In this document: positions 1 through 24,137 of the stretch, one piece after another
Position numbering within the stretch: the stretch's first letter is position 1
How the letters are laid out: every line of letters starts with the position of its first letter
Source: a virus
IMG/VR virus record: IMGVR_UViG_3300031746_000107
Location: 1 to 31,266 of that record
Strand: one strand, 5' to 3'
Length of the DNA stretch: 31,266 nt
Position numbers and translations under genes: made by a program
The notes under the pieces: model-generated
What the model was told of the DNA's origin: nothing
Seen by the model: the letters and a program-made list of their open reading frames with translations, nothing else
Database searches by the model: none

Positions 1-722
1 TCGACGTCAGAAAGTTTCCGGTTGTAGATGTACATATACTCTATGGCCCCCTGGAGGTTTCTGCCCATGTCGCTGGCACGGTTGCCGACATAGGCATTGA
101 CTCCAGGTCCTGCGGAGTAGTCCCCCGTATAGGGCCCCGAAAAGAGGGAGCCAAACCCCCACTTCGTACCGGAACGGTAAAGAATCTGTTCACCGGGAGA
201 CAAAACGATAGCCAAGGTATACCACTCTCCAGATGAGACCACACACCCGAGCCAGTAATCGTCCCTACTGGTCCCTCCAATCGTAGCGTACAGACCCATG
301 GCCCAATCGGCATTGCGAACATAGGGGGTCGGGGCAGGGTACTTGTCGATGATGCGGCCCAACCCCGCTGCGACCGCTTTGAACTTGAATGCGAACGTCA
401 TCTCTGTAGCGATGGAGTTATAGATATTGGCTCCAACGTTAATGGCGGAGTCGGTGAAATTAATGAATTTGCCGGTGTATCCATCCAACCATGTGGGACC
501 GTCTACAAAGGTCCCATGGTTGCCTTTACCGCTCAGGTCATTGACTCGGGTGCCGGTGCCTTCGTTAAATACGTAACAGCCTACCAACCCCTTGGCGAGA
601 GGATGGGACAAGAGAGGTTGATCGCCCAGTATGGGTTTATTCGTCTGACCCCCGCAGGGATCGGTGGACCAGAGAATGACGAGAAGCCAGAGGATAACGA
701 GAAGAAGGAATAGTCGTTTCAT
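1..722 (-). CDS. LamG/concanavalin-like secreted protein (3' end outside window)
   Basis: I translated this reading frame by hand; it is open from an ATG at 722 to the left edge, so only the first 240 residues are visible. Residues 1-20 are a basic start followed by a long Leu/Val/Ile/Trp run (MKRLFLLLVILWLLVILWS), i.e. a signal peptide or membrane anchor. From about residue 45 it reads as a laminin-G / concanavalin A-like lectin domain: 'GLVGCYVFNEGTGTRVNDLS', 'GKGNHGTFVDGPTW', a later 'GEWYTLAIVLSPG', and a closing 'GAIEYMYIYNRKLSD'. This family binds carbohydrate and often sits in phage fibres or appendages. The gene starts 1 nt after the stop of the upstream gene (TAACATG) with GGGG about 8 nt ahead. 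Its place right after the tailspike suggests a receptor-binding or accessory tail protein. The domain call is fairly sure; the role is inferred. Confidence 0.75.
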   Translation of the reverse strand, partial: MKRLFLLLVILWLLVILWSTDPCGGQTNKPILGDQPLLSHPLAKGLVGCYVFNEGTGTRVNDLSGKGNHGTFVDGPTWLDGYTGKFINFTDSAINVGANIYNSIATEMTFAFKFKAVAAGLGRIIDKYPAPTPYVRNADWAMGLYATIGGTSRDDYWLGCVVSSGEWYTLAIVLSPGEQILYRSGTKWGFGSLFSGPYTGDYSAGPGVNAYVGNRASDMGRNLQGAIEYMYIYNRKLSDV

Positions 723-723
723 G

Positions 724-1371
724 TTAGAGCCCCGTAGTCTTGCTGCAATAGCTGCGGAAGTGGACGCCGGCGTTGGCGTCCGTGTTGTTGACGATCACGC
801 GGACCTGGCTGGCTGCCAGAGGGATTGAAACGACCCAGTCATCCACGCGGTCCCACACGCTCAGGCCGTTTGCGTGTGCTCTCATCAGGTCTTGGCAGAG
901 TGTCACGGTATGGGTGGCATTGACGACGGATCGAACGGACTCGGAGTTGCCGACCGTTCCGTCTACGATGAACCACTTACGGCCCGGGACGTCGAAATCT
1001 CCAGTAGTTGCGTCCGTCAGCGTAATGCTCGTATCACCCGCATTCGCAGTAGCGTCATTTATGGTAGTCGTCGCCGGAGTCTCAGCCGTGCCAGTGAAGG
1101 TAGTGAGGGTTATCCAGTCATCGGCCGCGTAGGAAACCTCCACGATCACCGTGCAGCCATCCTGGGCGTCCGTGTCCGTCAGAGCCACCTCGATGTATAG
1201 GAGAGCGCTATAGCTGGCCGAGACGTCCTCGGCGTTTCCGACGACAAGGACGGCGGGGGCCACGGCCTGCCAGGCGTCGATGGTGTCAAAGGCAGTGGTC
1301 TTGGTCAATGCCGCCAGGGACACTTGGGAGAGGCCCAGGGCCAACATCAAAACTGCTAATTTCTTTCTCAT
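724..1371 (-). CDS. Secreted-looking beta-rich virion-associated protein
   Basis: A 215-residue protein not recognised by family. It opens with a textbook Sec signal peptide: basic MRKK, hydrophobic core LAVLMLALGLSQV, and a cleavage-like SLA|AL at about residue 20. The remainder is rich in Thr, Val, Ala and Asp, with alternating hydrophobic stretches typical of beta-sandwich proteins (for example VAPAVLVVGNAEDV and ASQVRVIVNN). It contains two cysteines in the interior and one near the C-terminus. A strong ribosome site (AAGGAGATCAAAG before ATG) decides the start. It lies 11 nt after the tailspike stop and 1 nt before the LamG gene, so it is in the same leftward operon. A tail or fibre accessory role is inferred only from position and composition. 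Confidence 0.7.
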   Translation of the reverse strand: MRKKLAVLMLALGLSQVSLAALTKTTAFDTIDAWQAVAPAVLVVGNAEDVSASYSALLYIEVALTDTDAQDGCTVIVEVSYAADDWITLTTFTGTAETPATTTINDATANAGDTSITLTDATTGDFDVPGRKWFIVDGTVGNSESVRSVVNATHTVTLCQDLMRAHANGLSVWDRVDDWVVSIPLAASQVRVIVNNTDANAGVHFRSYCSKTTGL

Positions 1372-1382
1372 CTTTGATCTCC

Positions 1383-4300
1383 TTAATTGACTGAATTCAC
1401 TGTGTATTCGAACGTCACGGTTGCGCTGGCTGGACTGCCGGTAGAGGTGGTCGTATGCCAGTTCAGGTAATCGCCTGCATCAACAGTTGGGTTGGTCAGA
1501 GAACCGTCATCGCTCGCACTGGTGCCGGCGTTGCTGGTTATGTCGGCGTCTATGGCCGCTGCATTGGCCCCATTTCCATCGGCCTCATCAAGCCCGCCCG
1601 TCACAAGCGTTCCTCCGATACAAAGTACGTGTATGGCCCGGATCGTGATGGCGTAGGGAACTCTCCATAGGGGAAAGTCATGCGTGTCTGCGGGCGAGCC
1701 AATCACGAACGATTTTGATTTATAGGCGGGCAGGGCGTAGGCCGCATCTCCGTAGAACCGCATCATGGCTCCGGACGTGGCAGAGGTGTCCACCGATACC
1801 TGCCCGGCCGCACTCACGGTCGGGTTCGCTCCATTGGGAATCTCAAATGTCAAGGCCGATCCGGCATCTACGGGACCACCACTCGGCTGTAAAGTCATTC
1901 CGCCATAGACCCCACCGGCCCCGGGAGTGCCTCCAGATAGGGCCAGGACTCCTCCGGCATTGTTTGCACCACTCGAAGCAGGGGCTTGGATGGTCGCTGT
2001 GACAGCCGAGCTGTCAGCCACGGTGTTTGGCCCCACGACTAACGCGAGTGGTTCGAGGTAGGTGACCGCTCCAGTGGCCCCCCATTGTCGCACGCCGTTT
2101 CTCGTGATAGACGGGTCTGTGCCGTTGCTCAAGTAAAATCCATAGTTCGTGGCCCCGGTGAAGGTGTAGGTGGGGACTGTTTTGTTGCCATAGGCGGATG
2201 ATATCTGGCCAGTTAGGGTGGGGCCGCCCGCTCGGACGGGAGCACCCGTACCCGTAGCCGTAGTCCAGACAGGGGCCGCTGTCCCTCCGCCCACCAGGAT
2301 TTCCGTAGTGGCACCTGCGGCCAGCGTTACCCAATTGGTCCCATTGCTGTACAGGGTTTTGCCGGCCGTCCCGGGAACTGCCCACGTCTCGGTAGAGTAG
2401 ACGTTGTTGGTCCCATCGCTGACCAGAATCTTGCGGTCCGTACCGGAGGCACTTGGGTACGTGGGTGTAGACCAGGCGGGAGGAGCTGCCCCTGCACCCT
2501 GTAGGACCTTGCCTGCTGCCCCGGCTGCCAGCCAGGCGTAGGCGTTGTCCGCCGTTCCGTACGCGATACCGCCGTTGGTCTCGGTCAGTCCGGCCAGGCT
2601 GGTGAGGGTAGCCCCGGCCCCGATGTCGCCGGCCGCGGAGAGTGTGATAGGAGAGGTCGCAGAAACGGCCAAGGTGCCGGAGGCGTTGGGCATGGTAATG
2701 GTCCGGTCTGCAGTCGGATCTGTCACAGTAAACAGCGTCTCATGGATATCGGCGGTGGCTCCCTCAAAAAGAATGCCCGTACTGCCGAAGATTATTTGGT
2801 TGGCGGATAGGGCTGGGTTGGAGGCCAACGTCCCCGCCTGATTGACATCGATGGACTGTGTTGCCAGCGTCAGGAAGTCGGCGGCCAGGCCGGTCAGGCT
2901 CACGGCATCGTGAGCCCCGCCTGTAGAGGTGGACCAGGTCGGAGCCGCTGAAGCCCCATTGCTCTTGAGATACTCGCCGTCTGATCCCAGGGCCAGCTCC
3001 TTGACATCTCCGGCACCGTCGCTGTAGAAGACCCGCCATGCGGTCTGGTCCAGGAACTCGGTGAGGTTGTCGTTGCCTCCGCTGGATATAGGGACGCCAT
3101 TGATTCTGATACCTGTGGCGTTCACATCGCCCACCACATTCAGCCGGTAGACGTTGTTAGGCTCGCCGATACCCAGGCACTGCTGGTTACTCGCGTTCAT
3201 GGTCCAGAAGATGTTATTGGCGGATCCCACGTGTGGACCGCCGAAGGAGTCGTTTTGCTGGTCCCAGACGTTGTGTCCGTTGGTGTTTTTGACGTAGCCT
3301 CGGTTGCCCACGATGGTAATGGGATTGAAGGTAGTGGATGTGATCTCTGCCAAAATATCCGTGGCAGAGCCACCGCTGTTATTGGAGATTTGTATCCAGC
3401 CCGGCTTTTGTCCCAACGCTTCGTCTTTGATAAGAATTTTAGGATAGACAGTCCCGTCGGAGTTCCACACCATCGTGTTGTCTCTGATAGTGACATAAAT
3501 AGCCACGGAGGTAGCGTCTGCTGATAACTCAATCAATGCATTGGCGTCGGAGTTCTCGAATTCGCAACTCTCAATCACCAGTTTGGAACCCTTCCAGTTG
3601 GGAAAAGGTATCTGCGTTCCACTGTTCTGAATGTCACAATCCCTAAAAACCCAGTCGTTGAAGCCAGAGTACCATCCTGGCAAAACAGTAGACTCGTGCC
3701 AGTTGCAGTCTACGATTATTGTGTTGGGTCCCATGATATGACAATCGATGACTCGGTTGGCGTTAGATTGACCAAAACTGCCATGAGTCTCACTATAGAA
3801 AACGGACCCACCGCTATACAGGTGCTGGAAGATGCAATCTCTCCAAGTGCATATTTGAGTATTGGGTACATTGAAGTCGATTGCAAAATTAGATATTGAT
3901 ACTCCCTCCCAGTTAATGCCACCAGCTACTTCAGAATACACAGTAGGAGTCAGGTCGAATGCCGCCTTTCCTGCCGTATTGTCACCAAACATACAAAAAT
4001 CTCGAAATACCGCACCAAAATATCCCTGGCCTTTTAGAGTAAATCCATTACAGCCATTCACGTCAAGGAAACTAGACCCCGGAGTACCCTCGACAGTAAT
4101 CACAACTCTTGTGGGGATATCAATCGGAGAGTCTATCCTGAACATGCCCGCTGGAACGATCACCTTGCCGTTGTCGTGCTCACTGCCGTACAGATTGGTC
4201 ACACGGTGAAAGAACTGAACGGCACACTGGAAGGCATTTGCGCAGTCCGTGTTCCTGTCGCCTTTGGCTCCCCACCATCGAGGGTCGGCCGCATTCACGG

Positions 4301-5255
4301 AGCCGGAGGTGGTCGTCACGTCACAGGGATCGAACCCGATGAAAACCGTATCGGGCGGGGCATCGAAAGCCCCACCGATCGTCAGTTTGTACGTACTGGC
4401 CTTGGTGATGGACCCTCCTGGGATGATCAAAAGCCCCAACGTACCGGGGGTAATGACAGAGGCCGTTAAGGTCTCCGCCGTGCTGACCACCAGCGTGGCC
4501 GGCGTAACCTCAATAGCCGATACGGCGGCCGCCAGGCTGGCGTAGTCATTAGAGTCGTACAGATACGAGGAGTGTAGGGCTCTCTTGGCCCCCAGGCGAT
4601 CGGCATTGGTCTCTGCACCGGTCACGATCCGCTGCCACTGGGCAGTCAGTGCCACGTTGGGGTCCCAGGTACCGGTGATCACTGGAGCCTCTGCGATCGT
4701 CGGGGCCCCGGCCGCATCGAAGGCCAGATACTTGCTCTTTCTCGCGGTCACGTCCGGCAGAGGCAACCAGTCATTGGGATCCGTTTGGGGGACCAGAAAC
4801 GCCCTGCCCAACAGGCGGTACAGAAACTGAACCTGCATGGTCAACTTGTCCAGGGAGTCCTCCAGGTTCTGGCGGTTGAGGTAGACCGTGTCCTTGTACG
4901 AGGCCTCCTGGGTCAGATCCGGCACCCGCAGGATGTGCAACTCATAGTCCGATGAGTACGTGTTGACCGTGGTCACCGTCCCACCCGGAGAGGCGAAGTA
5001 GTCGTCATTGTCCGCTGAAACTCTGTAATGGGTGGTCTCGGTCAAGACCGTCTCAGTGCCATCTGCGATCGTACGAAGCACCACGCGAATCTCCGCAGAC
5101 GTGAAGATCGGCCAGTCGAAATCGAAGTCCACAGTGGTCCCTTTGCAGGTATACGATATGGAGTCCGTGGTAGTGGTGATCTCCGCGATCGCCGGCAGGG
5201 GCGGGAAGGTAAGAAGGTAAGAAGCCAGGAAGGTAAGAAGGTAAGAACGTCGCAT
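1383..5255 (-). CDS. Tailspike: T7-fibre-like head-binding domain plus pectate-lyase-like beta-helix
   Basis: A 1290-residue receptor-binding tailspike. The ORF stays open for 65 more codons upstream, but those codons overlap the preceding gene. The ATG at 5255 is preceded by a strong site (AAAAAGGAGAATCAA), so I start there. Order of parts: residues 1-24, a signal-peptide-like leader built on a repeated YLLTF motif and ending AIA|E; about 26-160, a domain resembling the T7 gp17 N-terminal head-binding region (an ITTTTDSISYTCKGTTVDF start, later a QNLEDSLDKLTMQVQFLYR stretch); about 323-655, a pectate-lyase-like right-handed beta-helix beginning DPRWWGAKGD; about 700-1050, fibre-type repeats (DPTADRTITMPNASGTL, GKTLYSNGTNW); then a beta-rich C-terminus. 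T7 gp17 is 553 residues, so this is long. The helix suggests polysaccharide binding or cleavage, but catalytic residues cannot be assigned by eye. Confidence 0.85.
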   Translation of the reverse strand: MRRSYLLTFLASYLLTFPPLPAIAEITTTTDSISYTCKGTTVDFDFDWPIFTSAEIRVVLRTIADGTETVLTETTHYRVSADNDDYFASPGGTVTTVNTYSSDYELHILRVPDLTQEASYKDTVYLNRQNLEDSLDKLTMQVQFLYRLLGRAFLVPQTDPNDWLPLPDVTARKSKYLAFDAAGAPTIAEAPVITGTWDPNVALTAQWQRIVTGAETNADRLGAKRALHSSYLYDSNDYASLAAAVSAIEVTPATLVVSTAETLTASVITPGTLGLLIIPGGSITKASTYKLTIGGAFDAPPDTVFIGFDPCDVTTTSGSVNAADPRWWGAKGDRNTDCANAFQCAVQFFHRVTNLYGSEHDNGKVIVPAGMFRIDSPIDIPTRVVITVEGTPGSSFLDVNGCNGFTLKGQGYFGAVFRDFCMFGDNTAGKAAFDLTPTVYSEVAGGINWEGVSISNFAIDFNVPNTQICTWRDCIFQHLYSGGSVFYSETHGSFGQSNANRVIDCHIMGPNTIIVDCNWHESTVLPGWYSGFNDWVFRDCDIQNSGTQIPFPNWKGSKLVIESCEFENSDANALIELSADATSVAIYVTIRDNTMVWNSDGTVYPKILIKDEALGQKPGWIQISNNSGGSATDILAEITSTTFNPITIVGNRGYVKNTNGHNVWDQQNDSFGGPHVGSANNIFWTMNASNQQCLGIGEPNNVYRLNVVGDVNATGIRINGVPISSGGNDNLTEFLDQTAWRVFYSDGAGDVKELALGSDGEYLKSNGASAAPTWSTSTGGAHDAVSLTGLAADFLTLATQSIDVNQAGTLASNPALSANQIIFGSTGILFEGATADIHETLFTVTDPTADRTITMPNASGTLAVSATSPITLSAAGDIGAGATLTSLAGLTETNGGIAYGTADNAYAWLAAGAAGKVLQGAGAAPPAWSTPTYPSASGTDRKILVSDGTNNVYSTETWAVPGTAGKTLYSNGTNWVTLAAGATTEILVGGGTAAPVWTTATGTGAPVRAGGPTLTGQISSAYGNKTVPTYTFTGATNYGFYLSNGTDPSITRNGVRQWGATGAVTYLEPLALVVGPNTVADSSAVTATIQAPASSGANNAGGVLALSGGTPGAGGVYGGMTLQPSGGPVDAGSALTFEIPNGANPTVSAAGQVSVDTSATSGAMMRFYGDAAYALPAYKSKSFVIGSPADTHDFPLWRVPYAITIRAIHVLCIGGTLVTGGLDEADGNGANAAAIDADITSNAGTSASDDGSLTNPTVDAGDYLNWHTTTSTGSPASATVTFEYTVNSVN
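5206..5247. repeat. Octamer tandem repeat inside tailspike signal peptide
   Basis: Five consecutive 8-bp units of AAGGTAAG type (plus strand), the middle one degenerate (AAGCCAGG). This gives two perfect 18-bp copies at 5206-5223 and 5230-5247 with a 24-bp period. In the coding (minus) strand it encodes the duplicated YLLTF segments of the tailspike leader peptide. Confidence 0.85.
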
Positions 5256-5268
5256 TTGATTCTCCTTT

Positions 5269-8200
5269 TTACTCTTGCGCCCCGATGGGCGGAGGTGCTT
5301 TCTTCTCGTGGCGGCCCAGGGCGGATCTGGACCAGATGAATTCCTCGACGTTCCCAGACCGGACCGCCTTCTCGGCCTGGACCAGATACGGCGTGGGCAG
5401 GCCCATGGCGTAGCCTGCCACTTCGGCCATGGCCTCCAGGGTCTGGGCAAACTCTTCGGCGTCTACGTACTCATCCGGGTCCAGCCAATCTCGCAGGACC
5501 TTCGATCCTTTGCGTGCGAGTTTCTCCGTAGACCGCAAGGCCACACTCTCGATGGGACTGAAGGTGTCGCCCTTGCCGTAGTCCGGGTTCTGCCAGAAGA
5601 TCCTGGCCGTGGCCTGTATAAGCGTTCCGATGATGAATAGGTTCTGTAGAGGGGCTGCTGTGAGCTGCTCACCCTGTTTCTTCGGCCGCCACCGGAAGGC
5701 GTCACGGATCAGTTGGACCAGCATGGGCAGAACCACGGCCGCTATGACCATGTTTTGAAGGTTCTTGACCGGACTGCCCCGCTTGGCTACCAGGTTACGG
5801 TAGCCGTCCGCGAAGATCCTCCACTGCTTATTCGGTTCGTTCATGAAGATGGTCAGGAGTTTTTGAAAGGAGCTGTCCTGCTGGAAACTCGACAGACTGG
5901 TCATCGAGGCCGACGACTGGGTCTCCTCGGTGATTTCCTCGGCAAGGGCGATCGCCTTGGCCTTGTCCCCGGACCTGGCCAACTCCGCCCGGTAGGCAGA
6001 CCAGGCCCCCATCGCCGTTCCGAACTTGTCCATATCGCGGGTGCCGAAGGACAGGACCAACTTGAGCCAGGGCCGCTTGCCGGTCATCTGACCCACCCAA
6101 TCCTGGCGAAGCATGTCGCGGATGTCCCGCTCGTAGCCCTCGTCCCACCGCCTGCGGAGGATCGGACTGGCCGTTTGAAGTTCCTTGAAGTGGTCTATGG
6201 GGCTGGTCCAGAAGTCCACGGAACCCCGGACCAGGTCAGCAAGCCCAAGCCTCGGATCTGTAGCATAAGACACCAGGGACAACGGCTGGAGTAACGCCAC
6301 CGACGGCCGTGCCACCATGGCCGCTACCGCATTGGTCCGGACCTTGTCCATCCATCGGATCATCTTGGCCCGGTCCCGGCCGCCACGCCCAAAAATCCCG
6401 AGCAGGGCCATTACCTCATCGAGGTCGGCCTTGGAATGGTATTGCAGGACCGCCTGTGCAATCTGACGGTTTTTGAACATCCGTCTGAACTGCGACATCG
6501 GCAAGGCCCAGGCCTTAAAGTGCTCCATCTGTGCCACATGGTTGACGAGGACCTGCGTGGCGCCTGCGAATCGCAAGGGCTTGATCGATCGGACACGGCT
6601 CTTGAGACTCCCGTTTGTTGGACTGAGTCTGGCCAACATCTCCTGAGCCACCAGGAGATATTCCGGGATCTCCTGGCCTTCCACGTCTCGACCGAGGGGG
6701 CTGTAGAAGGCATTCTTGGGCAGGTCGATCCCGTAGGTGGCACGGTACACCTTGTTGATGCTGTCGTAATACCGATGGTAAAACCGCATCTGCCAGACGC
6801 CCCAGGACTTTTCCTGGGTAGTCAAGAGCATGCGGACCTTGTCCATGATGTCGTCGGTCCAGAGCATGCCGAAGGGCGTGCCATCTTCCCTGATCCCGCC
6901 CCGCAGAGTGGCGTCCAGGGACGGGTCAAGCATCTCCAGCCACTTCTTGAGAAAGGCATCCCGTGTGGCCTTGATGGTCACCTCGCGACCGAGAAGATCC
7001 GTCCCCACGATCGTCACCTCGTCTTGTAGGGCGGCCAGTGCCTTGTCTGCATCCTGGCCGAAGGTCTCCTTTGCCCCCGCAGTCAGCTCCTTGAGGACGG
7101 CATCCTGGCCGACTGCCTCCAGGGCATGTGCCTTGGGGGCCATGCGGCCGTACTCGCTCAAGGCCGATTGATAGGGTTTGCTCACTTTGTCCAGCCTGCT
7201 TATCCGGTCAAGGATCGATCTCCATCCAAATTGGGAAAGTATCAAGCCATGAAGGGGATTGATCTGTCTCTCGAGTTGTTCGCGGGGCATGGCCTCGGTC
7301 CCGGCCTTGAGATCTTGCCCACCGGTGATTACCTTCAGGATTGCCTCTTTGTCCGTCTCGAACCTGGCCCGATCCGCCAGTCGCTTGTCCTCCGCCAGCA
7401 TCTTGCCCGTGGCCTTGATCGACCGGATGTTGTCCAGAACCTGCTGAACCTCCTGGGCGGACATGCTGCTGAACCCCTGCCACATAGCCGCATCGGTCAC
7501 CATGCGGAGTTGGTCGATCTGGATCTCTCCGTTATCGTACTTGGCTATGGCCTCGGCAATCTGTGCCCTGACCTCTTCCCTCGGCGTGCCCTTGTGCATC
7601 TCCAGATCGAGCTCGATCTGATTGAGCCTGGCGTGGACGTCTGCCGTCAGGGTCCCGACGGGCTTGCCGGACTGGGATCGCACCCCGGTAGAGGCGATCT
7701 CGTCGCGGACCGCCTGACGCAGGTCCCTGGCATTGGATTCCTCGGCCAGTTGCTCGGCCATGGCCAAGGCCCGCATCAAGGAGGGATCCCCGGTGATGTT
7801 CTTGACCTGGTCCAGGAGCTTGCCCCGCTCACGCAGTGGCAGGTTCTTTTGGGCCCAGTCCACCAACTCACTGGCCCTGGCCTTCCGCTGGGCCTCCTTC
7901 GCCTTGAGGGACTCCCTGGCGAACTTGACCCGGTCCGCCCCGATCGCGTTGGCCTCGGCCAGTTTCTCGGCCCACTCATCCCGCTCCCGGCTGATCCGCT
8001 CACGCATGGCCGTCAGTTTGATGGTCTGGGCCGCCTGGCCCATCTTGTACCCCACCCGCTGGCCACGCTCTTGTGCCCTGAAAAAGGCCTCGTCTACTGC
8101 CCGGATCACATCCACGTCGGTCAGGATCATCCCCTTGGACTTGGCCAGTTTCTCGATCTGACGGCGGATCGCCGTCCGCTCGGCATTGGTCGGCCCCTCG

Positions 8201-11200
8201 GCGAAGTGGGGCAGGCCGCTGTCTTTGACAAACAGATCCGCGGCATCCTCAGGATTGCCACCCATCACCAGGACCAGGTCAAGGAGGGTCTGATTGATAT
8301 CCTGGACCGATCGTCCGGCCTTGAGCATCTCGTACTTCTGGACCAGTGCCTCAAAGCCCGGATCGTGCTGCTGCCTGGCCCGGTCGACCGCACCCTCAAG
8401 GAGAGACCCCTTGCCGGCCGTCGCGGAGAGCAGCCCCCCAACGTACTCCACGAACTGGACCGGGTCAGAGATATCCAGGTCCGCCTGCTGACCCGCCTGA
8501 TCCCAGGACAAGACCGCCTGAGCCTTCTCAAAGACGAACTTCTTGCGGAGATCCCTTTGGATGTCCTTGGGCTGTTGGTCTATTGCCTCCTGAACGTCGG
8601 TCTGGTTCGTCTTGCCCACATACCACGGCCCTGCTCCCAAGGTTCTGAATCGTCCCTGGGCCTCCTCAAAGGCATCGGCATACAACGGATGATCTGCAAT
8701 GGCCTTTCGAACCTTGGTCAGCTCGCCCGGGACGGGCCTGACCGGCACACCCTTGAGCTTGATGACCACCCCCTTCTTTTGAGGGGTGAACATCCTGCCC
8801 ATGACATCCTTTACCGCCTGTGGCACCTTGACGTCGATCGGCGAATCCTTGATGACCTGGTAGACCCGGCTGAGCCACTCCCTGAACCGCCAGAAGATCC
8901 GCCTCAGTGCAGGTATCGGGGCCTTGCCGTCTCGGAGCCACCTCTCGAAGGCCCTGGCCCAGGTCTCTTGATGTTCGGTAGTCCATTCGCCCTTGCCCGC
9001 ACCCAGCCAACCCTCTACAACCTGAAGGTCTGCCCCATCCAGGTCCCTGACAAAGACGTGGCCCAGCTCGTGCAGGAGGGTAGAGGCGTCGGCGTTCTCG
9101 AAGATGTGAATGATCGCTTTACCGGAATCCAGGAATTCGACGGCGCCTTTGTTGGATTGCGGAAGTGCACCGCCCCCCGGCCCGACCTGGCCTGGCTCGA
9201 TAGGCAAATTTGAGAGCAACTCACGGATTCGCCGTTCAAAACCAGTATCACTCTCCTTTTGCTTACGTGTGAATGTGATTTCGCTTATTGGGGCACGGGG
9301 ATCTATGGTCATTTCTGGCCAAGTGCTCAGACGTAGATCCCGATCAACAGTGAGTCTGGCCAGATAATTCTCCTGATCCGGCGAGAGGTTTGCCACGCGG
9401 ACGGTAATCTTTTCCGTCGTGGAATGAGTATCAACTGTTTCCACTCCGGCTGACATAAGCAACTCTACGGCGGTCGATGCTGGAACTCCCTCATTTTGCC
9501 GGACCATCTTAATTATTTCAGATGGCTCCTCCTGTTTCAATGCCCCAGGTCCAACCTCACCGGCCTTCCCCGTCCGGATCTCCGTGATATGACCGGCCAG
9601 GTACTCCTCTTCGGTCATCCCCATCGCCGAGGCCCTGGCCTCGATCAGATTCATGATCGTGTCCGTGTACCGCTTGGGGGTCTCTTCTATCCCTGGCGTG
9701 GCCTCCACCATGTCGATGATCTGGGCGCCGATGGTCTTGTAGGTCACAAAAAGAGAGGGGGCCCCGGTTGGCTCGGAGATCCCGGGTGCCCCACTCTCTG
9801 AAGGAGGTCCTATTCCTATTGGTTGCCGCCCTGGTTGAGCCGCCTCACCGGATGGCCAGCCCGCTTCGCCTGGGGCTGACGGCTGGCCGATCTCCCCTGC
9901 CTGGACCGGTTGCCCCTTGGCCGGTATCGGCCCTCCACGGGTCAGCATCTCGTCAAAGATCTTCTGCAGGATCTCCGGGGTGATCGGCCCTTCTATCTGG
10001 GCCGGCTCGCCTGCCTCCGCCTGGGGCCGACCCTCTTGTCTGACGCCCGCTGCTGCCTGGCCCTCTGGAGTAGGCAGGGCCCCTTCTTGCTTGCCATCTG
10101 TACCCCCTTTTTGCGGCCTTCCCATCCTGGCCGCCAGTGTTCCGGTCGTGAACTTGACCCCTCCAGGTTCCGCCAGGACCAGGACCTCGACAGGAAGGCC
10201 CTGGATATCCTGTTTGACCCCCTCCATCAGGCGATCGATCATCCCTGCGTCTGCACCTGCCCCGAAGTCCTGCGTGCCGCTGACAGCCTCAAGGATGGTC
10301 TGGAGGCGCTCCTCGCCTATCTCCTCAAGAAGACCGTTCCAGCCGGCCCGGTCGAAGAGCTTCCCCACGAAATCCGAATGACCTAACGTGTTGTGCAAGC
10401 CCAGCCAGGCCCGCTCAACGCCCGCCAGGAAGGGCTTGCCCATGGGTAGGGCATTGACGATCTTGTCAAACTGGGTAACTACTGGCCGCATGATCGATCC
10501 AACACCCTCGCCGATGGCCCCGCCGGCGGACTCCGTGGCTGCGGATATGACCGTTTCCCCCCAACCCTTGGCGATACTGGTCGCCCAATCCTCCGGGTTG
10601 ATCTCAAAGCGGATCTTGCCATCATCCAGGGCGATCTCGCCGGCCAGACGACGGTCCAGGATCTCCTCGGTGACCCGGTGGGGCATGCCCAGGGTCGCCC
10701 GGGTAATGCCCCCTCCTGCCCACCCGGCCGCTCGAAGGGCCAGATTCCCAATCTTGGTCTCGGTCTGCTTCCTCAAAAGGCGGACGCCCGCCTCCTTGGC
10801 CGCAGTCTTGCCCAGGGCGGCCAGTCCCCCGGTCAGGGCGAACTCAGCCATCCAGGCGGGAAGGACCGAAACCCCCTGCCCAACCTGTGCCCAGAACGTC
10901 AGGCCGCGGCGGTCCAACTCCTCTTGCTCCTGGAGGTACCGCTCGACCAACTCGGTGTCTTGTTGCTTGAGATCCTCCGGACCGAGGGGTGGACTCCACG
11001 GAGAATTATCGCCCGCACTGGCCCTTCGGATATCGTCGGTCACCCGTGACCAGGGATCCATTGCCTGGGCAGAGTATTTGGCCCTCTGTTCGGACGCCTC
11101 GGTGTATGAGTCGGCCTTGAGCCGCTGGACCGCCTGGTACAGATCCGCGTTCTTGACCAGTCCTGCAGGAGAGAACGGCATCAGCTCCAGCCAGTCAGAG

Positions 11201-11907
11201 GCGTCCATCTTGCCGACCATCTCGACAAGACCTATAGGATTCTCTTGGTGGACGTTTACCGGTGCCGCCGGGACCGCAAGGATGTCCCTTGGTCCGATCG
11301 GAGGGCTGAACGTGAACTCACCCGGCTTGACCAGGTCAGGCATCATCATCCGCGTTATGCTGGGGTCCACGCCCAGGACATCGCCCAGGACATCGGCCCC
11401 CAGGGCGGTCGCCTTGTCTTTGTCGGTCGCCCCAACCTGATCGAGCACGGCGGTACCTGGGACCACGTCTGCCAGTTTGCGGCGACCGTCCATGACGTCT
11501 TGGGCCGCGTGGGCCTGGCCCTGCTCCTGTTCCACCTGGTCCCAGACCGACGGAGGCGAGCCCGATCCCATTGCTGCCTGCTGCAGGTGAATGCCCTCGG
11601 CCGCCTTGTTTGCCGCATCGATCGAATTGTAGATCCCCAGGTGCCTGCCCGTCTTCCTGTATGTAGCGATGGCCTCCTCGTTGGACATTATGCGGGCGTC
11701 GTCGCTCACCGTGGGAATCAGAACCTCGTTGCCGTCAACCCCAATGCTGATCGATCTGACCGAGCTGGAGGTACCGTCAGGATTTTGGACATTGGGCCGG
11801 TGCAGTAAGTCGATGTTGCCGGGCGTGATCAGCCCGGATGTGTCTGGGGAGTCGGCAACGGCCGTCTGACCGGCGGACTCTTTTTCGACATCATCCCACA
11901 CGCTCAT
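5269..11907 (-). CDS. Giant polyvalent internal/ejection protein with HELGH metallopeptidase motif
   Basis: A 2212-residue protein in the position of T7 gp16 (1318 residues), the largest ejected core protein. Visible parts: residues 24-110, a module seen in many phage internal proteins ([40 protein letters not shown]); the SVWDxVE motif twice (near 2 and 118); about 530, an [17 protein letters not shown] motif typical of large polyvalent phage proteins; about 600-716, a Pro/Gly/Glu-rich linker; HELGH at 946-950, a zinc-metallopeptidase signature; about 1150-1700, long charged helical or coiled-coil stretches; about 1770-2135, a C-terminal region resembling the large polyvalent protein-associated domain LPD38, with two hydrophobic segments near 2051-2075 and 2090-2108 that could insert in membrane. 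The start overlaps the previous stop by ATGA. I see no lytic transglycosylase domain. The ejection role is inferred from gene order; the peptidase motif is seen directly. Confidence 0.82.
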
Positions 11908-13784
11908 TTGTAGTTGTCTTCCTTGGCCATAGCCTCGGCCTTGACCTTGTCCCCACCTGCGATCTGGAAGTAGTGCCGGGCCACATCGAGGGTCAGGGGT
12001 TTCTTGATCTTCCGCCAGGACTCAATCCACTCGTCAGACTTCACCCCGCCGGTTGCGGCCCACTGTGCCTTTGCCTCCGGAGGCAGCCGGCGGATGGCCG
12101 ACCGCGTCGCCGCTGGTGTCATGTTCTGGAAGTAGCTCATCAACACAGGCGTGGACAGATATCGCAGATACCCTTGATGCTGCTCAGGAGTGGCCTTTGG
12201 ATTGGCCTCCACCCAGGCATTGTAATCGTCTATGGATTCCAACCACTTTCGATTGTTGGCCAGTGCGTCTTTACCCTCAAAGAGCTTGGCGGTTCTGAGC
12301 TGGTCCAGATACTCCCGGCCCTTCTTGGCGTCCGGACTCGCCAGGACGTTCGCCGGGTCCACAGCGTCCTGGATCTTCTTGAAGTAACCTGCCCCTTCAG
12401 CACTCGTGAAATTGCCCGCGGCTCCGGCCAGAATCTTCATGGCCTCCGACGGTTTGATCCGCCGGGCGGCCACGTCGTCTATTGCGATCTGTACCTTTGC
12501 GTGTGCCTTCAGAACGGCCTCAGCCCCTGGCTTGGCCGGCTCTGTGATGATCCGATAGAGCTGCTGTTGCTCGTCGGCCGTGATGGTCTGGTCCTTGGCT
12601 GCCTGATCGACCTCGGCCAGGTCTTTGATATCGCCCCTCAGTACACCTGAGAACAAGGCCGTTTTGGCATCATTGGATTGTTTTTTGCCTTTGGCCTTTT
12701 CGGCGTCCTGTATCCGGTCCACATACTGAGCCGACTCACTGGGGGTCAATCTGTCCGCGTATGCGGCCAACACGCCCAGGGCATTGTCCGGATCCGCCGA
12801 GATCGCCCATGAGACGATTACGTTGGCCTCCAAGACCTGTTGCCGTGTGTATTCACGCGGCTTGGTCAAGTGGACCATCATGCCGGAGTATTCCGACGGG
12901 TCCAGCGTCTTGACCTTGAGTGCCTGGTCGGCCTGGTCCACAGTAAGTTCTCCGGACCATAGTTTGCGGGTCAACTCTGCCCGATCGGAGTCCCTTTGCA
13001 GGTCGGCCTGTCTCTGTGCGATCGCTGCCTGCGCCTGCACCCGATTGGTTATCCTGCCCACTCCATCGGCATCGAGACCCAGGGCCTCCTGAGTCTGGGG
13101 CCTGTTGATCACCTCGAGTGCGTACTGCCAACCGTTTTGGACTGCCACCTTCTGAAGAGACGCCCAGGCCGATTCCTCCTTAACCTGCGATCGCAGGACC
13201 TCGGATTGGGCCGGATCCATCCACCCCGTGCCCTTCTCCGCCAAATCGATGGCCTCTCCGAACCTGCCCTGCCCGGCCAGGGCAATGGCCTGGGCCGGAA
13301 TGGTTTTCTGCCAATACGTTTTCTCGGTGTTTTGTATCCCGTCCGCCACGGCCGCACGCCAAACCGGCAAATGCCTATCCATGGCCATCTTTAGATCATC
13401 CTGTACCGTGGTGGGTAGACCTTTCATCACACCGGTTACATGTTTTTTCAGGCCCGTCTGGAAGTCCTCGTCCCAGTACGTGGCCAGGTCTTTATTGCCG
13501 ATCCCGTTGGGAGGCTGGACGATCTGCTCCGGATCCGCCCGATCGATCTGGCTGCGGTACTGGTAGACGTAGTCCAGTATCCTGCTCTGACCCTGGCTGG
13601 CCAACAGGGCATTCCGCCGTCGGATGCGCTCCTGACCGATCTGCTGCAGGACATCCCCCATGCCCGCCACGGCCTGACCGACGCCGGCTGCCGCACGGGA
13701 CTGTGCGGAAACAGCCTCATAAGGCGTTGCCGCATTGCCTGACGGTCCGATCTGCGGGCTGGATTGTCGTGGAAATCTCGGCAT
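11904..13784 (-). CDS. Internal virion protein (T7 gp15-like by position)
   Basis: A 626-residue, largely helical, charged and Gln/Ala-rich protein lying between the gp14-like gene and the giant ejection protein, which is the gp15 position in T7 (747 residues). It starts [19 protein letters not shown], then has a helical segment with [20 protein letters not shown], similar in style to the N-termini of podoviral core proteins that form part of the ejection tube. Repeated helical blocks ([18 protein letters not shown] and similar) look TPR-like but I do not assign a domain. The start ATG at 13784 sits 3 nt after a run of ten G on the coding strand that also serves as the ribosome site. Its stop overlaps the next start (ATGA). 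Function is assigned from synteny more than from motifs. Confidence 0.72.
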
Positions 13785-13787
13785 GTA

Positions 13788-13797
13788 CCCCCCCCCC
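13788..13797. repeat. 10-bp C homopolymer (poly-G on coding strand) at a ribosome binding site
   Basis: Ten consecutive C on the plus strand fill the gap between the TAG of the gp14-like gene and the ATG of the gp15-like gene. On the transcript this is a G10 tract that doubles as the Shine-Dalgarno sequence. Length changes here would alter spacing without changing either reading frame. Confidence 0.85.
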
Positions 13798-14297
13798 TAG
13801 GCAAGCAAGGCTATCGTGCCTGCAGTCTGGGCCAGAGAACTGAATGCCCCCAGAATACCACTACGTTTGGCCGAACTGGCGGCCTTGCGATACGCCTTGT
13901 TTTCCAGGTATGCTTTTCTCTGAGAGATCGCGGTCTCACGGCCGACCATCAACGCATCCTGCATGATGTTCCTCTGAGTCTCCTCCAGAATGTCCATGGG
14001 CGTACCTTCGAGAGTCACGCTGGATTCACCGTATCGCTCCTTTTGCTCGGCCATCAGATCATGGCCCTGCCTCAGTATTTGCCTCTGCTGCCATTTGCCT
14101 TTGGCCAGGGCCTCCTTCCCCTCTTCCAGGGCAAACTGGGCAGACGAGTAGTATTGAGACGCCTGAGCATTCCCCGCCATGATGCTGCCTATCCCATTGG
14201 CGATTCCACCCATCATCATCAAGGAATTGCCCATTCCCCAACCGCCACTATTGCCACCGCCGAGGGGGCTCGAATTATAACCGTATGTCGTAATCAT
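13797..14297 (-). CDS. Internal virion protein (T7 gp14-like)
   Basis: A 166-residue protein close in size to T7 gp14 (196 residues) and in the same place, just after tail tubular protein B. The N-terminus is Gly/Met-rich and hydrophobic (GMGNSLMMMGGIANGIGSIMAG), consistent with a membrane-active helix. It is followed by a long amphipathic helix (YYSSAQFALEEGKEALAKG, then QILRQGHDLMAEQKERYG) and a hydrophobic C-terminus (LAQTAGTIALLA). The helix plus 'ESSVTLEGTPMDIL' pattern recalls the conserved segment of gp14-type core proteins. The start overlaps the previous stop by one base (TGATG), with GAGG about 10 nt ahead. gp14-type proteins are ejected and help form the pore in the outer membrane; this role is inferred. 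Confidence 0.78.
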   Translation of the reverse strand: MITTYGYNSSPLGGGNSGGWGMGNSLMMMGGIANGIGSIMAGNAQASQYYSSAQFALEEGKEALAKGKWQQRQILRQGHDLMAEQKERYGESSVTLEGTPMDILEETQRNIMQDALMVGRETAISQRKAYLENKAYRKAASSAKRSGILGAFSSLAQTAGTIALLA

Positions 14298-16894
14298 CAG
14301 TCGTATACCTCAACGTACGGCACCAGGGCCCGGACCGTCATGGGCAGGGGCTGGTCCTGTCGGATCGTCACGGATATATCCTGGGACATGGTGCTCTCAA
14401 AGGACAGGGTCTTGTCTCCGGTGAACAGGGGATTGACATCGATCGGGTCCCAGGAATTGCGGAAGTTGATCCGCTTCATGTGACCGGCGTCCGGACCCAT
14501 CGAGATTCCCCAGGTCTGATACAGACTCGCCGTGCACTCCTTGATCTGTTTGACGCGAGACCGCGTGTTTCCACGATCTGACACCATATCGAACCGGACC
14601 GTCTTGATCGTGGAGTCGTAGCCCAGTCCCATGGAAACATCCGTCACGAAATCAGACAGGTTCAATGTTCCTGTACCGGAGATCGTCTCGCCCTCCACAA
14701 CCGCCCCCTGGGCGAGAACCTCTACTGCCATTCCTGCCAGGTGAGTCGCACCAGCGAAGTCCTTTTCCACACACCGGACGGTCCCTCCTGACGTGTAGGT
14801 GCTGTACCCGGCAGTGGTAAAGTTGGTTCCGCCGGCGGAGTTGTCCAGAGAGAAGGTTTTGGCCGTTGAATTGGCGTCGTCTACGGTGAAGACCCGGCCG
14901 TTGATCTGGGTCATCCCCAACACACCCTCGATCAGGATCTGGTTGCCATCGGCCAGGGCCGCTCCGGAGCCCAGGGTTGGCCACGTGGATAGCGTCACAA
15001 CTCCAGGACTGGCCTTGGAGATCCCGGTGATATTCGCCGGATCACCCCCGCTCCAGGACAGCCCGCAATCGACAAAGAAGACGTCGTTTTGATCATCACC
15101 CCAGGACCAAGGAGCCAGATACTCGACGTACCTGACGTCATTGCCGTCAATGTCCCGGTGGGCTATCCACCAGACTTCATCCTCCTCGTCTTCCGGGATC
15201 ACCGCTATGGACTCTACGTCGCCATCCGTGATCTGCCTGCCCCATGCGGCCATGGAGTTGACTCGGTCGTAGGTATTCGTCACAACCACGCCGTCGGACC
15301 GCGTGGTCCACAGGATTGGGTATGGCCTGCTTTGCCAGGCCAGGCCGGTTATCCCGCCGGCGGTAATGTGGTCCGAAAGTAGTGTGATGTCCGGAGAGGC
15401 AATGGAGTCGGAGTCGTAGTCATAGATCACCTCTCGAACCTTGCGACCGCCCCGCTGGATGTACAACAGGGCGTTATCTGCATCGATCGCCGAAACCGTC
15501 GCACACGGGATAGAAACCCGGCTGCCGATCACAGGCGGATTGTCCGGCCGGATCGCGGCCGTGGTATCCAAGGGTTGAATCTCCAGCACATTGCCGGCAG
15601 TGCCCACGATCATTCCTCTCCGTTCAGGTATGGCGATCCATCGGATAGGGTGCTGCTGGCCCACGCTCAGGGTATAGGCGAAAGAGTCATCCGCCGCCGT
15701 ACCGGCCCTGAACTGCTCATAGTCGCCGGTGGCAGAGAACCACATCCGCGTAGGCTGGTGAGAAGTGCATGCGTACAGGACGCGGTCGGCGTACGTGCTG
15801 ATCGTCTCGGGATATCCCCGCAGATCGCTCCAGGCGCCTTCTGACCAATAGGTTGTTGCGTTCGCGTCCGCCAGGCCGACCAAAACGTCTGCCTGTACGA
15901 CATTGGGCTCATTGTAATCGGAGATCCGGACTATTCCGATGTGCATGTAAGGCTGGCTGTACAGGTGCCAGGTGACGGTCCCGCTGGTGTACGACGTGCA
16001 AGAAACGCGGAAGTACACGGACTGGTCATAGGTGTTCTCTCCGATCACCCTCTCGTTTGCGGTCATAGTGGAGTAGGTCAGCCACAGATTGCCATCAAGA
16101 CTATACTGTACCTGCACTTCTCCCACCCAGGTACCTGAAAGGACTGCCTCCCATCCCTGGTCGTCTGCAATCGTGACCTCGTTGCCGTCTCCGATCGCAG
16201 TGAATGTATCGTTGGCATCGGACTGGCCGACCACCTGGCGAAGCCGCCAAAGGGCGCCCACCTGGTTTCCGTCAAAGACGCTGCCTGAGGCGGTCAAGGA
16301 TATGGCCCCAGTCGTCCCCGAAGGAACGATGTTGACCTCTGTGTCGTTCTCTGTGAGGAACGGACCGTCGATGATGTTGACATCCGCACAGGTCCACGAG
16401 GCATGGTCTGACCTGGTCAGCTTCTGGGGCCGATGAAGGGGATGCGTCAGGTACATGACGTCCGCAGACTGGACCCACTGGATCCGGTCAAGCTCCGTGG
16501 CCAGATACGGCGTGTTGACCTCATAGGGATCGCTGTTGGAATCGAGGACCTGCCCGTGCGATCTGAAGAAGCGGACATATCTGTCTCCGAACTCCAGGCA
16601 GTACGAGTCCCCTGCAGCGTAGTACCAAGACACCAGCCTGGCCACACCATTGTTCTTGGTGAACGCCACGTACTTGGTGCCTGGCCTGCGAACGGCCGGC
16701 CCCTGGACCAGGGGTATCACGTTCTCCATCGTCTGGCAGGACGACGAGTACTTGGTCAGGTCCATGCGGACATCGATCAATGGAGAGATCTCGCCGCCTG
16801 AGAAGCTGTTGACCAAGACCGACGTGGCTCCCCACGTGGACCCAGCGAACAGCCACGCCAACAGGAAACAGATTACTCTCTTGATTCCAGCCAT
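14297..16894 (-). CDS. Tail tubular protein B / tail nozzle (T7 gp12-like) with signal peptide
   Basis: An 865-residue protein matching the tail nozzle family (T7 gp12, 794 residues), which forms the distal end of the short tail. The family's N-terminal signature is clear at residues 24-60: VLVNSFSGGEISPLIDVRMD, then YSSSCQTMENVIPLVQGPAV and RRPGTKYV. Homologues normally begin almost at this signature; here it is preceded by about 23 residues forming a Sec-type signal peptide (basic MAGIKR, core VICFLLAWLFAG, small residues STWGA). The C-terminal part is beta-rich (for example VRFDMVSDRGNTRSRVKQ). The gene begins 22 nt inside the end of tail tubular protein A and its stop overlaps the gp14-like start. 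Ribosome site weak (GAG about 8 nt away), so translation is probably coupled. Identity is confident; the leader is the odd feature. Confidence 0.88.
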   Translation of the reverse strand: MAGIKRVICFLLAWLFAGSTWGATSVLVNSFSGGEISPLIDVRMDLTKYSSSCQTMENVIPLVQGPAVRRPGTKYVAFTKNNGVARLVSWYYAAGDSYCLEFGDRYVRFFRSHGQVLDSNSDPYEVNTPYLATELDRIQWVQSADVMYLTHPLHRPQKLTRSDHASWTCADVNIIDGPFLTENDTEVNIVPSGTTGAISLTASGSVFDGNQVGALWRLRQVVGQSDANDTFTAIGDGNEVTIADDQGWEAVLSGTWVGEVQVQYSLDGNLWLTYSTMTANERVIGENTYDQSVYFRVSCTSYTSGTVTWHLYSQPYMHIGIVRISDYNEPNVVQADVLVGLADANATTYWSEGAWSDLRGYPETISTYADRVLYACTSHQPTRMWFSATGDYEQFRAGTAADDSFAYTLSVGQQHPIRWIAIPERRGMIVGTAGNVLEIQPLDTTAAIRPDNPPVIGSRVSIPCATVSAIDADNALLYIQRGGRKVREVIYDYDSDSIASPDITLLSDHITAGGITGLAWQSRPYPILWTTRSDGVVVTNTYDRVNSMAAWGRQITDGDVESIAVIPEDEEDEVWWIAHRDIDGNDVRYVEYLAPWSWGDDQNDVFFVDCGLSWSGGDPANITGISKASPGVVTLSTWPTLGSGAALADGNQILIEGVLGMTQINGRVFTVDDANSTAKTFSLDNSAGGTNFTTAGYSTYTSGGTVRCVEKDFAGATHLAGMAVEVLAQGAVVEGETISGTGTLNLSDFVTDVSMGLGYDSTIKTVRFDMVSDRGNTRSRVKQIKECTASLYQTWGISMGPDAGHMKRINFRNSWDPIDVNPLFTGDKTLSFESTMSQDISVTIRQDQPLPMTVRALVPYVEVYD

Positions 16895-17457
16895 GTGGTT
16901 GTCTCAAATTCCTCTACACTGCATTCTACGGCGTCGAAGTGTCTGGCGTCTGACATGGTCCGCTGGAAGTCCGCTTCCAGGCCCTCCGCCAGATCGTACT
17001 TCTCAGAGAGTCCAGGCAAAAGTCTCTGTGCCAGTCTCGTGTATAGGGCAGCGATGAATAGGGCTGTGTACCTGGCCGCGTCAGTTTCCCGCCCCATATA
17101 CAGTATCTTGGCCTCGGATTCGTCCATCACAAGGCAGTTCCCTTGCCGCCTCCACTCGATGTCCTGATCGTCCAACCGGATCACCCTCAGGCAATAGGGA
17201 TTCGTGGGCAGGGTGTATCTGTTCGTGTATCCCCAGGCCGGGGCGGTCGTGCTGGCGGCCGAGATGTCTTTGGGCTCAATGGCAAAGTTCCAGTTGTGGA
17301 GGGTAAGCACCTCATCCAGAATCTGATCGTACCAGAGCAGGCACAGCTCCGCCTCTATGGGGATCTGATCGCTCGGTGCATAGTCAAGGGCATTGACCCT
17401 CGCGGCCCCGATCCTGGCCAGAGCCATGTTGCAGATGCCGATCTTTGACGTAGCCAT
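16873..17457 (-). CDS. Tail tubular protein A / head-tail adaptor gatekeeper (T7 gp11-like)
   Basis: A 194-residue protein, nearly the length of T7 gp11 (196). It joins the portal to the tail and holds the nozzle. The family signature is visible: KIGICNMALARIGAARVNAL near the start, then EAELCLLWYDQILDEVLTLH followed by NWNFA, and a 'LPTNPYCLRVIRL' strand. The mid-C-terminal helix region (AARYTALFIAALYTRLAQRL) is typical of the DUF-type adaptor fold. The start lies 3 nt after the stop of the upstream small secreted-looking gene; the 3' end overlaps the nozzle gene by 22 nt. No leader peptide is present here, unlike its two neighbours. Confidence 0.88.
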   Translation of the reverse strand: MATSKIGICNMALARIGAARVNALDYAPSDQIPIEAELCLLWYDQILDEVLTLHNWNFAIEPKDISAASTTAPAWGYTNRYTLPTNPYCLRVIRLDDQDIEWRRQGNCLVMDESEAKILYMGRETDAARYTALFIAALYTRLAQRLLPGLSEKYDLAEGLEADFQRTMSDARHFDAVECSVEEFETTTWLESRE

Positions 17458-17460
17458 AGG

Positions 17461-17994
17461 TCACTGCCACTCTTCGCGGTAATACAGAATCACGTGAAGG
17501 TGCTTGGTGGTGCATCCCGGCCCATCGTCCAGGTTGGCCCACTTGACGGTCAGGGCACCAGAGAATGGAACTCCGGCGAATTGCGTACCGGCTGAATTGG
17601 CCATTGTGATCATGAAGGCACAGGGGTCAGTGGAACTCTTGCCGGCCACGTCTGCGAACAGGACCTTGCCATCTGTGTCCGTGATGTTGACATCGTAAGA
17701 CGGGGCGTTGCCGTCAGCGTAGTACGAGATCCGGTACAGAGTCCCCACGAGGTTCGAATCTGTGGTCGTACTGGAGTCCGTGTTGGCGTCGATAGCTATG
17801 ACCAGCCGCCTCATGGCCGATTCGTGTGGAGCGAACCTGCTCTTCTGACGATCGGTGGCAGACCTGTTCCCGGTAATGCCCCAGCTCGTAGTCTGGGTAC
17901 TGGCCGCCCAGGAGCCTATGGCCAAGCACAGAAACAGCCACGCTATGACCAGATACCATCCTTTGCTTCTGATTCTCTTTTTACACCAGATCAT
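17461..17994 (-). CDS. Small secreted-looking virion-cluster protein
   Basis: A 177-residue protein of unknown family. The ORF is open to 18216, but that extension lies within the glycosyltransferase gene. The ATG at 17994 has GAGGTG at good spacing and overlaps the upstream stop by 14 nt, so I choose it. The N-terminus is a clear signal peptide: MIWCKKRIRSKGW, core YLVIAWLFLCLAIG, then SWA|AST at about residue 33. The mature part is beta-rich with a conserved-looking end (VKWANLDDGPGCTTKHLHVI, then LYYREEW). It lies between the glycosyltransferase and tail tubular protein A, so a head-tail or decoration role is possible but not shown. Confidence 0.72.
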   Translation of the reverse strand: MIWCKKRIRSKGWYLVIAWLFLCLAIGSWAASTQTTSWGITGNRSATDRQKSRFAPHESAMRRLVIAIDANTDSSTTTDSNLVGTLYRISYYADGNAPSYDVNITDTDGKVLFADVAGKSSTDPCAFMITMANSAGTQFAGVPFSGALTVKWANLDDGPGCTTKHLHVILYYREEWQ

Positions 17995-19665: not shown

Positions 19666-20595
19666 CTACGTCTTCTTGATCAGGATTTTGACGACCTTCG
19701 GCCCCTCAATACGGGTGGCTCCGAACGACGCACTCGAGTAGACACGGACCGAGAATCTCTTGCCGGGGTCCTCGGCGATTCGGGTCTTGCGGTTGGCTGC
19801 CGCTCCGTAGCCTACACCGCCCTTGGCATAGGCAAAACACTCGTAGCAGGCCGTGTCCACGGTGTGGGCGTTGAACCGGGTGGACGCAAGTGGAATGAAC
19901 GTGAAGCCGGCAAAGGAGTTGGCCCTGCCCTCAGCCAATGCCTTGATGGTGTTGTAGTCGACCGACTTCACCTCTGTAACCTGCAGCCAGTTGTTGATCG
20001 CCGTGAAGTTACAGACAAAGAACCGCTCCAGGTCGGGGTCGACGTCGGCCTCGTCAAGGAGGTTCTTACAGGTCATGACCTTGGCCAGGGTCAAGGTTGT
20101 TTCTGTGGTGTCCGCGGAGTCGGAACCGGCCGTGGCCACGGTGCCGTCCCCCGCAACCACCCTGCACTCTCCGCTGTCGTAGGCGTTGATTGAGGTGGCT
20201 CCCGCTACCCCGCTGTAGGATGTCCCTCCCAGGGCGTCAAGGATCGCGTCGTCGATAGCTCGATTGAACGCGTATGCCTGGGTGAGGGCGTAGGGAGAGG
20301 TAGGATCGATCAGCATCTTGACGGTGTCCAGATCGTCGATGATGTCTCCATCCTCGTAGTCCACCATGGTCACCTTTCGCCGACTGTGCGGGGTGTCCGT
20401 GGCCGGGGTGTCGCCGTGGCGAGTGGTCACTTTCTTGGCGGTTCTGGCTCCGATGCGGTCGAAGTAGGCATCAGATCCGACGATCTTGGTGGGTCCAATG
20501 CACGTGGCCATCAGCTTGGTTGACGTCTGTTGAGACAGCATGATGACGTTATTCTCATACTGTTGAACAAAGGCAATGGTGATTTCGGTACTCAT
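19666..20595 (-). CDS. Major capsid protein
   Basis: A 309-residue major capsid protein of the HK97-fold podoviral type. The frame is open 10 codons further, but ATG at 20595 has CAGGAG ahead and yields the family's usual start MSTEITIAFVQQYENNVIML. Family hallmarks seen: LSQQTSTKL, a DAYFDRIGA segment, the TPATDTPHSRRKVTMVDYED stretch (a near-invariant motif in this capsid group), DDLDTVKMLIDPTSPYALTQ and a RAIDDAILDALGGTSY helix, ending in VVKILIKK. It follows the scaffold gene after a 147-nt structured gap and precedes the paired decoration genes. Confidence 0.9.
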   Translation of the reverse strand: MSTEITIAFVQQYENNVIMLSQQTSTKLMATCIGPTKIVGSDAYFDRIGARTAKKVTTRHGDTPATDTPHSRRKVTMVDYEDGDIIDDLDTVKMLIDPTSPYALTQAYAFNRAIDDAILDALGGTSYSGVAGATSINAYDSGECRVVAGDGTVATAGSDSADTTETTLTLAKVMTCKNLLDEADVDPDLERFFVCNFTAINNWLQVTEVKSVDYNTIKALAEGRANSFAGFTFIPLASTRFNAHTVDTACYECFAYAKGGVGYGAAANRKTRIAEDPGKRFSVRVYSSASFGATRIEGPKVVKILIKKT

Positions 20596-21918: not shown

Positions 21919-22200
21919 CTATGAATCCAAGGACGATTCGGTTTTGACCTCTGTCTGTGCGGGCTCCTCTGGTCGATCTTTAAGGGCGTCCAGGATGTAC
22001 AAAAAGAAATCCCGGCCGGCCAGGTTGTATGCCGTGTGATCGAAAGAGCCTTTGACATAGAGGCAGGCATCGAATCCACAATACCTGCGAAGATCCGCCA
22101 GCACAGCCTCTCCGTGAGGCCCGGAAAACGCATGCAGGTAGTCAATGTGGAGCTGATCCTTCAGCTCCTCGGTGGTCAAGACGGGTTTCGCCGTGATCAT
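21919..22200 (-). CDS. Bbp19-like small phage protein
   Basis: A 93-residue protein with the pattern of the Bbp19-like phage family: a 'F-x-PHGEAVLADLRRYCGFD' segment, then 'GSFDHTAYNLAGRDFFLYIL', which in this family links a short helical pair. The function of the family is unknown; genes of this kind sit next to portal genes in many podoviruses, as here, where the start overlaps the portal stop by ATGA. The C-terminal 20 residues are acidic and probably disordered. Confidence 0.65.
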   Translation of the reverse strand: MITAKPVLTTEELKDQLHIDYLHAFSGPHGEAVLADLRRYCGFDACLYVKGSFDHTAYNLAGRDFFLYILDALKDRPEEPAQTEVKTESSLDS

Positions 22201-24103: not shown

Positions 24104-24137
24104 ATTATCGGATGGTCGTTCTATCGGACTTAACTTC

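Follow-up and report, generated by a model that had tools for sequence, protein, structure and literature searches.

Sec-type leaders on the nozzle and tail spike of a podovirus group, and possible assembly of the particle in two compartments

The usual view of tailed phages is that particles are assembled entirely in the cytoplasm, and that nozzle and spikes are normally added last. Carin1, a Cobetia phage (PDB 8ck1), and phages of the epsilon15, BPP-1 and HTVC010P type share with those described here the gene order and homologues of nozzle, adaptor and head-binding spike domain. In all nine named-phage records checked (L001-L008 and L426; L-numbers denote relative loci), the nozzle and head-binding domain begin at residue 1 and are leaderless. 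Signal sequences on virion proteins are a feature of the Ff inoviruses. Their pIII and pVIII have type I signal sequences, are moved by host Sec (pVIII also YidC) and enter the particle at the membrane (PMC4823517). Our literature searches found no description of a tailed phage with exported tail parts.

We analysed an IMG/VR virus record of 31,266 bases, referred to as the window, in which the structural half of a podovirus lies on the minus strand. A preliminary description proposed that five of its proteins start with Sec-type leaders. In ordinary cytoplasmic assembly of the T7 or epsilon15 type, nozzle and spike lack export signals, whereas the window nozzle and spike have them.

Leaders in the window

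Leaders were scored with a log-odds model of our own, using our own parameters, that describes the n-region, h-region, c-region and -3/-1 cleavage site. For calibration, twelve well-known E. coli signal peptides scored 9.8 to 22.8, and 1040 composition shuffles all scored 10.0 or less. The structural genes are terminase, portal, scaffold, capsid, two decoration-like paralogues, a glycosyltransferase-like gene, a 177-aa protein, adaptor, nozzle, three core proteins, spike, a 215-aa protein and a LamG-like protein. The features used below are as follows.

3..722, minus strand: LamG-like protein, truncated at the edge of the window; Laminin_G_3 (Pfam PF13385), E=6.8e-6, slightly below the cut-off; leader score 16.6
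724..1371, minus strand: 215-aa protein with leader MRKKLAVLMLALGLSQVSLA (1312-1371); score 16.9
1383..5255, minus strand: putative tail spike preprotein, 1290 aa; phrog_1640 from residue 28, phrog_13893 from residue 26
5184..5255, minus strand: spike leader MRRSYLLTFLASYLLTFPPLPAIA, 24 residues; score 13.7
5269..14297, minus strand: three internal core proteins (166, 626 and 2212 aa); phrog_418, phrog_9880; leaderless, scores -9.3, -3.7 and -21.1
14297..16894, minus strand: putative tail nozzle preprotein, 865 aa; phrog_376 from residue 24, mature part from residue 23-24
16829..16894, minus strand: nozzle leader MAGIKRVICFLLAWLFAGSTWG, residues 1-22; score 11.2
16873..17457, minus strand: tail adaptor (gp11-like), inner partner of the nozzle; phrog_394, E=2e-36; leaderless, score -4.5
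17461..17994, minus strand: 177-aa protein that fills the slot ahead of the adaptor; leader at 17905-17994 (residues 1-30); score 18.9
19666..20595, minus strand: major capsid protein; phrog_3437; leaderless, score -14.1
22197..23852, minus strand: portal; phrog_332, E=4e-104; leaderless, score -22.0

All five proposed leaders have a basic n-region and a hydrophobic core by our score, and range from 11.2 to 18.9. The remaining 21 window genes score -3.7 or lower. Small residues resembling a cleavage site are present in four (spike AIA/E, 215-aa protein SLA/A, 177-aa protein SWA/A, nozzle TWG/A; the slash marks the putative cut). The exception is the LamG-like protein, with a hydrophobic N-terminus (648-722) and no clear cleavage motif. 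By the same score, the window shows no leader on terminase, portal, scaffold, capsid, the decoration proteins, adaptor or the core proteins. The leaders, the four cleavage-like sites and their restriction to outer tail and neighbouring proteins are thus as first described. We discarded a Fisher test of outer versus inner genes as partly circular, since some 'outer' genes had been picked by their leader.

The preliminary description also stated that, in nozzle and spike, the conserved domain follows the leader directly, and PHROG profiles and alignments agree. Residues 24-863 of the nozzle match positions 4-709 of phrog_376 (E=6.5e-177), which is a full-length match. When the nozzle is aligned with seven leaderless homologues (alignment A1), these start at the end of the leader, as does the solved homologue, the 8ck1 'Tail Nozzle'. 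In a structure model of the nozzle, the leader is a separate helix (residues 2-21), predicted with modest confidence. For the spike, the phrog_1640 head-binding domain (E=3.2e-16; alignments A2 and A10) begins at residue 28, behind the 24-residue leader, rather than at residue 1 as in leaderless homologues (A2). The domain also starts at residue 1 in the solved homologue Dpo31/Dpo36 (28lx/8ck1). A close kinship with T7 did not hold; nozzle, adaptor and spike belong to the families of podoviruses of the epsilon15/BPP-1/Carin1/HTVC010P type. The nearest named relatives of the nozzle are HTVC010P-type Pelagibacter phages, epsilon15, BcepC6B and Carin1, all at 28-39% identity.

Other genes of the structural cluster have features of their own. 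Two decoration-like paralogues, 72% identical, lie in tandem (18632-19066 and 19146-19580), and a glycosyltransferase-like gene (17981-18595; phrog_1574, weak Pfam Glycos_transf_2) is found within the cluster. The 2212-aa core protein (5269-11907) has a zinc-peptidase-like motif, HELGH, at residue 946; L293, a genome-borne relative, has a similar one, HEYGH, in a core-type protein. Between terminase and portal, a small protein (23852-24109) would, from an internal start, be a single-helix membrane protein (MGVILASLLPLLMGLGAYGLMKSK).

Leaders and start codons among relatives

Several hundred relatives were collected in IMG/VR scans. For each gene, we scored every in-frame start lying no more than 55 codons before the conserved domain, a leader being a score of at least 9, and duplicates were removed. 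On the question raised in the preliminary description, some related phages do share the leaders. They were found on 13 of 267 distinct nozzle genes (12 at 9 or above and one borderline, at 7.2) and on 12 of 141 distinct spike genes. The identical procedure, applied to the same relatives, placed leaders on none of 241 adaptors, 188 capsids and 129 portals. We therefore rejected chance hydrophobic N-termini, on the strength of these controls and the composition shuffles. The nozzles are those of the window, L089, L009, L178, L177, L179, L311, L308 (identical to L373), L374, L375, L376 (with near-copy L377), L401 and L405. The spikes are those of the window, L102, L100, L178, L308, L310, L311, L317, L323, L374, L377 and L413. 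Hence, the leaders are not a peculiarity of one genome; the trait marks a group of contigs, and the spike leader is spread more widely than that of the nozzle.

Spike scores are bimodal, the lowest leader scoring 9.0 and the top leaderless gene, in the paired nozzle/spike contig set, 4.1. Leader sequences vary among contigs, of 43 to 67% GC, yet keep Sec anatomy. The leader-bearing nozzles that were included in a tree cluster on it, and three changes are needed. Each contig has one nozzle locus, and no leaderless spare copy was seen. Genomes from the phylum to which a Lentisphaeria MAG belongs also contain nozzle relatives, and the loci read there were leaderless. Similarly, phage zth2-2, with a Lentisphaerae host, has the same modules and no leader on nozzle or spike. 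L156 (Phycocomes), considered as a planctomycete relative, was rejected because it belongs to Paracoccaceae.

Two nozzle loci are unusual. In L179 (9989-13762), the nozzle is about 1250 aa, enlarged by insertions with hydrophobic stretches, and is possibly a composite gene. On the contig of L310 (G799 / L370, 1241-2829), a nozzle homologue appears to be broken in two: one ORF ends with residues 81-109, and a second ORF, which begins with the leader-like MRYLLILLLSCSSAFG, carries the rest.

The leaders of nozzle and spike are nested. Where both N-termini are readable, six contigs have both leaders (window, L178, L311, L308, L374 and L377), five have the spike leader alone (L100, L102, L317, L323 and L413) and about 94 have neither. 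No such contig pairs a nozzle leader with a leaderless spike. The association gives a Fisher value of 2.9e-7, uncorrected for kinship and with several contigs recruited through the spike domain.

The preliminary description had named conserved and used internal starts as what would speak against leaders, and in most genes these were not found. There is no in-frame ATG, GTG or TTG between leader and domain in five nozzles (L178, L177, L311, L374 and L405) and four spikes (window, L178, L377 and L413). Therefore, a leaderless form from these nine genes is excluded, and for them we rejected an internal start as the explanation. The start sites also show the leaders to be translated: those of spikes mostly start at an ATG behind a Shine-Dalgarno sequence. 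In the window, the spike ATG has AAGG 8 nt upstream, and the next in-frame start is codon 42, within the domain. The window nozzle is the weakest case. Its gene lies downstream of the phrog_394 adaptor gene, and its ATG, with a poor Shine-Dalgarno of its own, lies in a 22-nt overlap with the adaptor gene end; a TTG at codon 27 has GGAG 11 nt upstream. In L009, the nozzle leader starts at a TTG overlapping the TGA of the adaptor, and there is also an ATG at the usual start position.

Further leader-bearing genes adjoin adaptor or spike in L178, L177, L179, L089, L009, L100, L310, L317 and L323. They encode LamG proteins, pectate-lyase-like proteins and proteins of no known family, and are only candidates for a virion role. 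Homologues of the 177-aa protein occupy the same slot in L102 and L089, and both bear leaders. A fold search with its AlphaFold model (beta-rich, of modest quality, mean pLDDT 62) gave no convincing match. A relative of the LamG-like protein (L178, 8228-9052) is leader-bearing, and the 215-aa protein has no homologue among the collected relative loci.

Where the outer tail parts may join the particle

Sec signal peptides have a positive n-region and a short core; they direct translocation, and the mature domain is placed in the periplasm. Hydrophobic cores of the nozzle leaders are mostly 12 to 15 residues (KD19 1.04 in L178 and 1.53 in the window). The mature parts have KD19 maxima of 0.89-1.66 and no transmembrane segment. 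Together, positive n-regions, these nozzle cores and mature parts free of transmembrane segments predict a periplasmic mature domain. Furthermore, the presence of leaders on the outermost tail parts, and on none of head, portal and adaptor, suggests that particles are finished outside the cytoplasm. Our reading is that these are podovirus-type tailed phages with an outer tail module made as Sec preproteins, which joins cytoplasmic heads when the inner membrane is breached or later. We give this a probability of about 0.5. Note that we infer export, cleavage, and the place and timing of assembly.

The steps might be as follows. Spike and accessory adhesins, joined in a subgroup by the nozzle, would cross the inner membrane through host Sec. 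The leader would be cut off by signal peptidase I, and the mature proteins would fold in the periplasm. Meanwhile, DNA-filled heads with portal, core and adaptor would be built in the cytoplasm. The modules could then meet when infection ends and the inner membrane is breached, or else in the lysate, and nozzle and spikes would dock on the adaptor there. That completion waits until the separating membrane has gone, with head and adaptor cytoplasmic and nozzle and spikes Sec-exported, we hold at slightly under even odds.

The dividing line between adaptor and nozzle separates parts built before or at packaging from parts added last, which counts for export. The nesting also fits: an exported nozzle would force export of the attached spike, and not the reverse. 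A spike could be exported alone, and would join finished particles late. Late joining of a periplasmic tail module is thus favoured, because the leader-bearing parts are those added last and because of the nested pattern. A difficulty is that DNA must stay in the head while the nozzle is across a membrane. Also counting against export are the poor Shine-Dalgarno and codon-27 TTG of the window nozzle, and the lack of cysteine enrichment, a mark of the periplasm, which we looked for in leader-bearing nozzles. Pfam and PHROG scans for lysis genes gave one weak spanin-like match only. Of the two uses first proposed for the leaders, export is the better supported, with Sec-like leaders preceding domains usually found from residue 1 onwards.

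Alternatively, most spike and nozzle might be exported to act outside, in receptor masking, superinfection exclusion or glycan digestion, and virions would be built in the cytoplasm, as in ordinary phages, from a non-exported minority. Both spikes and LamG proteins are of a receptor or glycan type, inefficient leaders could divide the protein pool, and many adjoining leader genes have no known virion role. Yet nine genes have no internal start for a cytoplasmic form, and a secreted nozzle has no obvious role outside. To export an essential part and use the leftovers would also be costly, and the leaders are kept across deep divergence. We consider this alternative unlikely.

The other use first proposed, a membrane tether, is weaker. 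Here, the leader would be retained as a hydrophobic N-terminal element that tethers assembly to the membrane or, in a variant, helps the tail to penetrate the envelope. An N-terminal hydrophobic helix, modelled as separate in the nozzle, and the LamG leader with its unclear cleavage motif would suit such a role. However, cleavage-like small residues fall at the N-terminus of the homologues, and the head-binding domain of solved relatives begins at residue 1. The nozzle cores are short, there is no second transmembrane segment, and from the positive n-regions the mature part is expected on the periplasmic side. Retention is, in our judgement, improbable. It is more doubtful again that spike and adhesin leaders are passengers, acquired with host secreted proteins and of no use to the phage. 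LamG and pectate-lyase domains do resemble such proteins, but leaders are joined to phage-specific nozzle and head-binding domains, the leaderless forms of which start at residue 1, and are retained while their sequence diverges. Finally, mis-called starts, with translation beginning inside and the upstream codons non-coding or read-through, draw on the window and L009 nozzles and are the least likely reading. They are refuted for the nine genes without internal starts, and the good Shine-Dalgarno sequences of most spike leaders and the empty adaptor, capsid and portal scans speak against them.

Comparison with described phages

If export is correct, assembly spans two compartments, and finishing the particle depends on the inner membrane being lost. 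Receptor-binding proteins could then act outside the cell before release. In addition, discarding signal-peptide proteins when choosing phage virion proteins would lose real ones. Leaders on nozzle and spike also allow further phages of this kind to be recognised from sequence.

Among tailed phages, the metagenomic podoviruses vir555 (BK063671) and MW202898 are alike in having leader-bearing proteins beside the tail genes, and differ in that their own nozzle and head-binding protein are leaderless. The former (L003) is annotated as infecting Methanomicrobiales; it has five leader-bearing genes around the tail cluster, at 13872-14384 and 26880-31897. The likeness to Ff inoviruses is that virion proteins have signal sequences, known here from the nozzle and spike genes. 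In Ff inoviruses, coat proteins are embedded in the membrane before assembly and virions are extruded, whereas the mature parts described here have no transmembrane segment. Unlike inoviruses, the window group are dsDNA tailed phages, with leaders on outer tail parts only.
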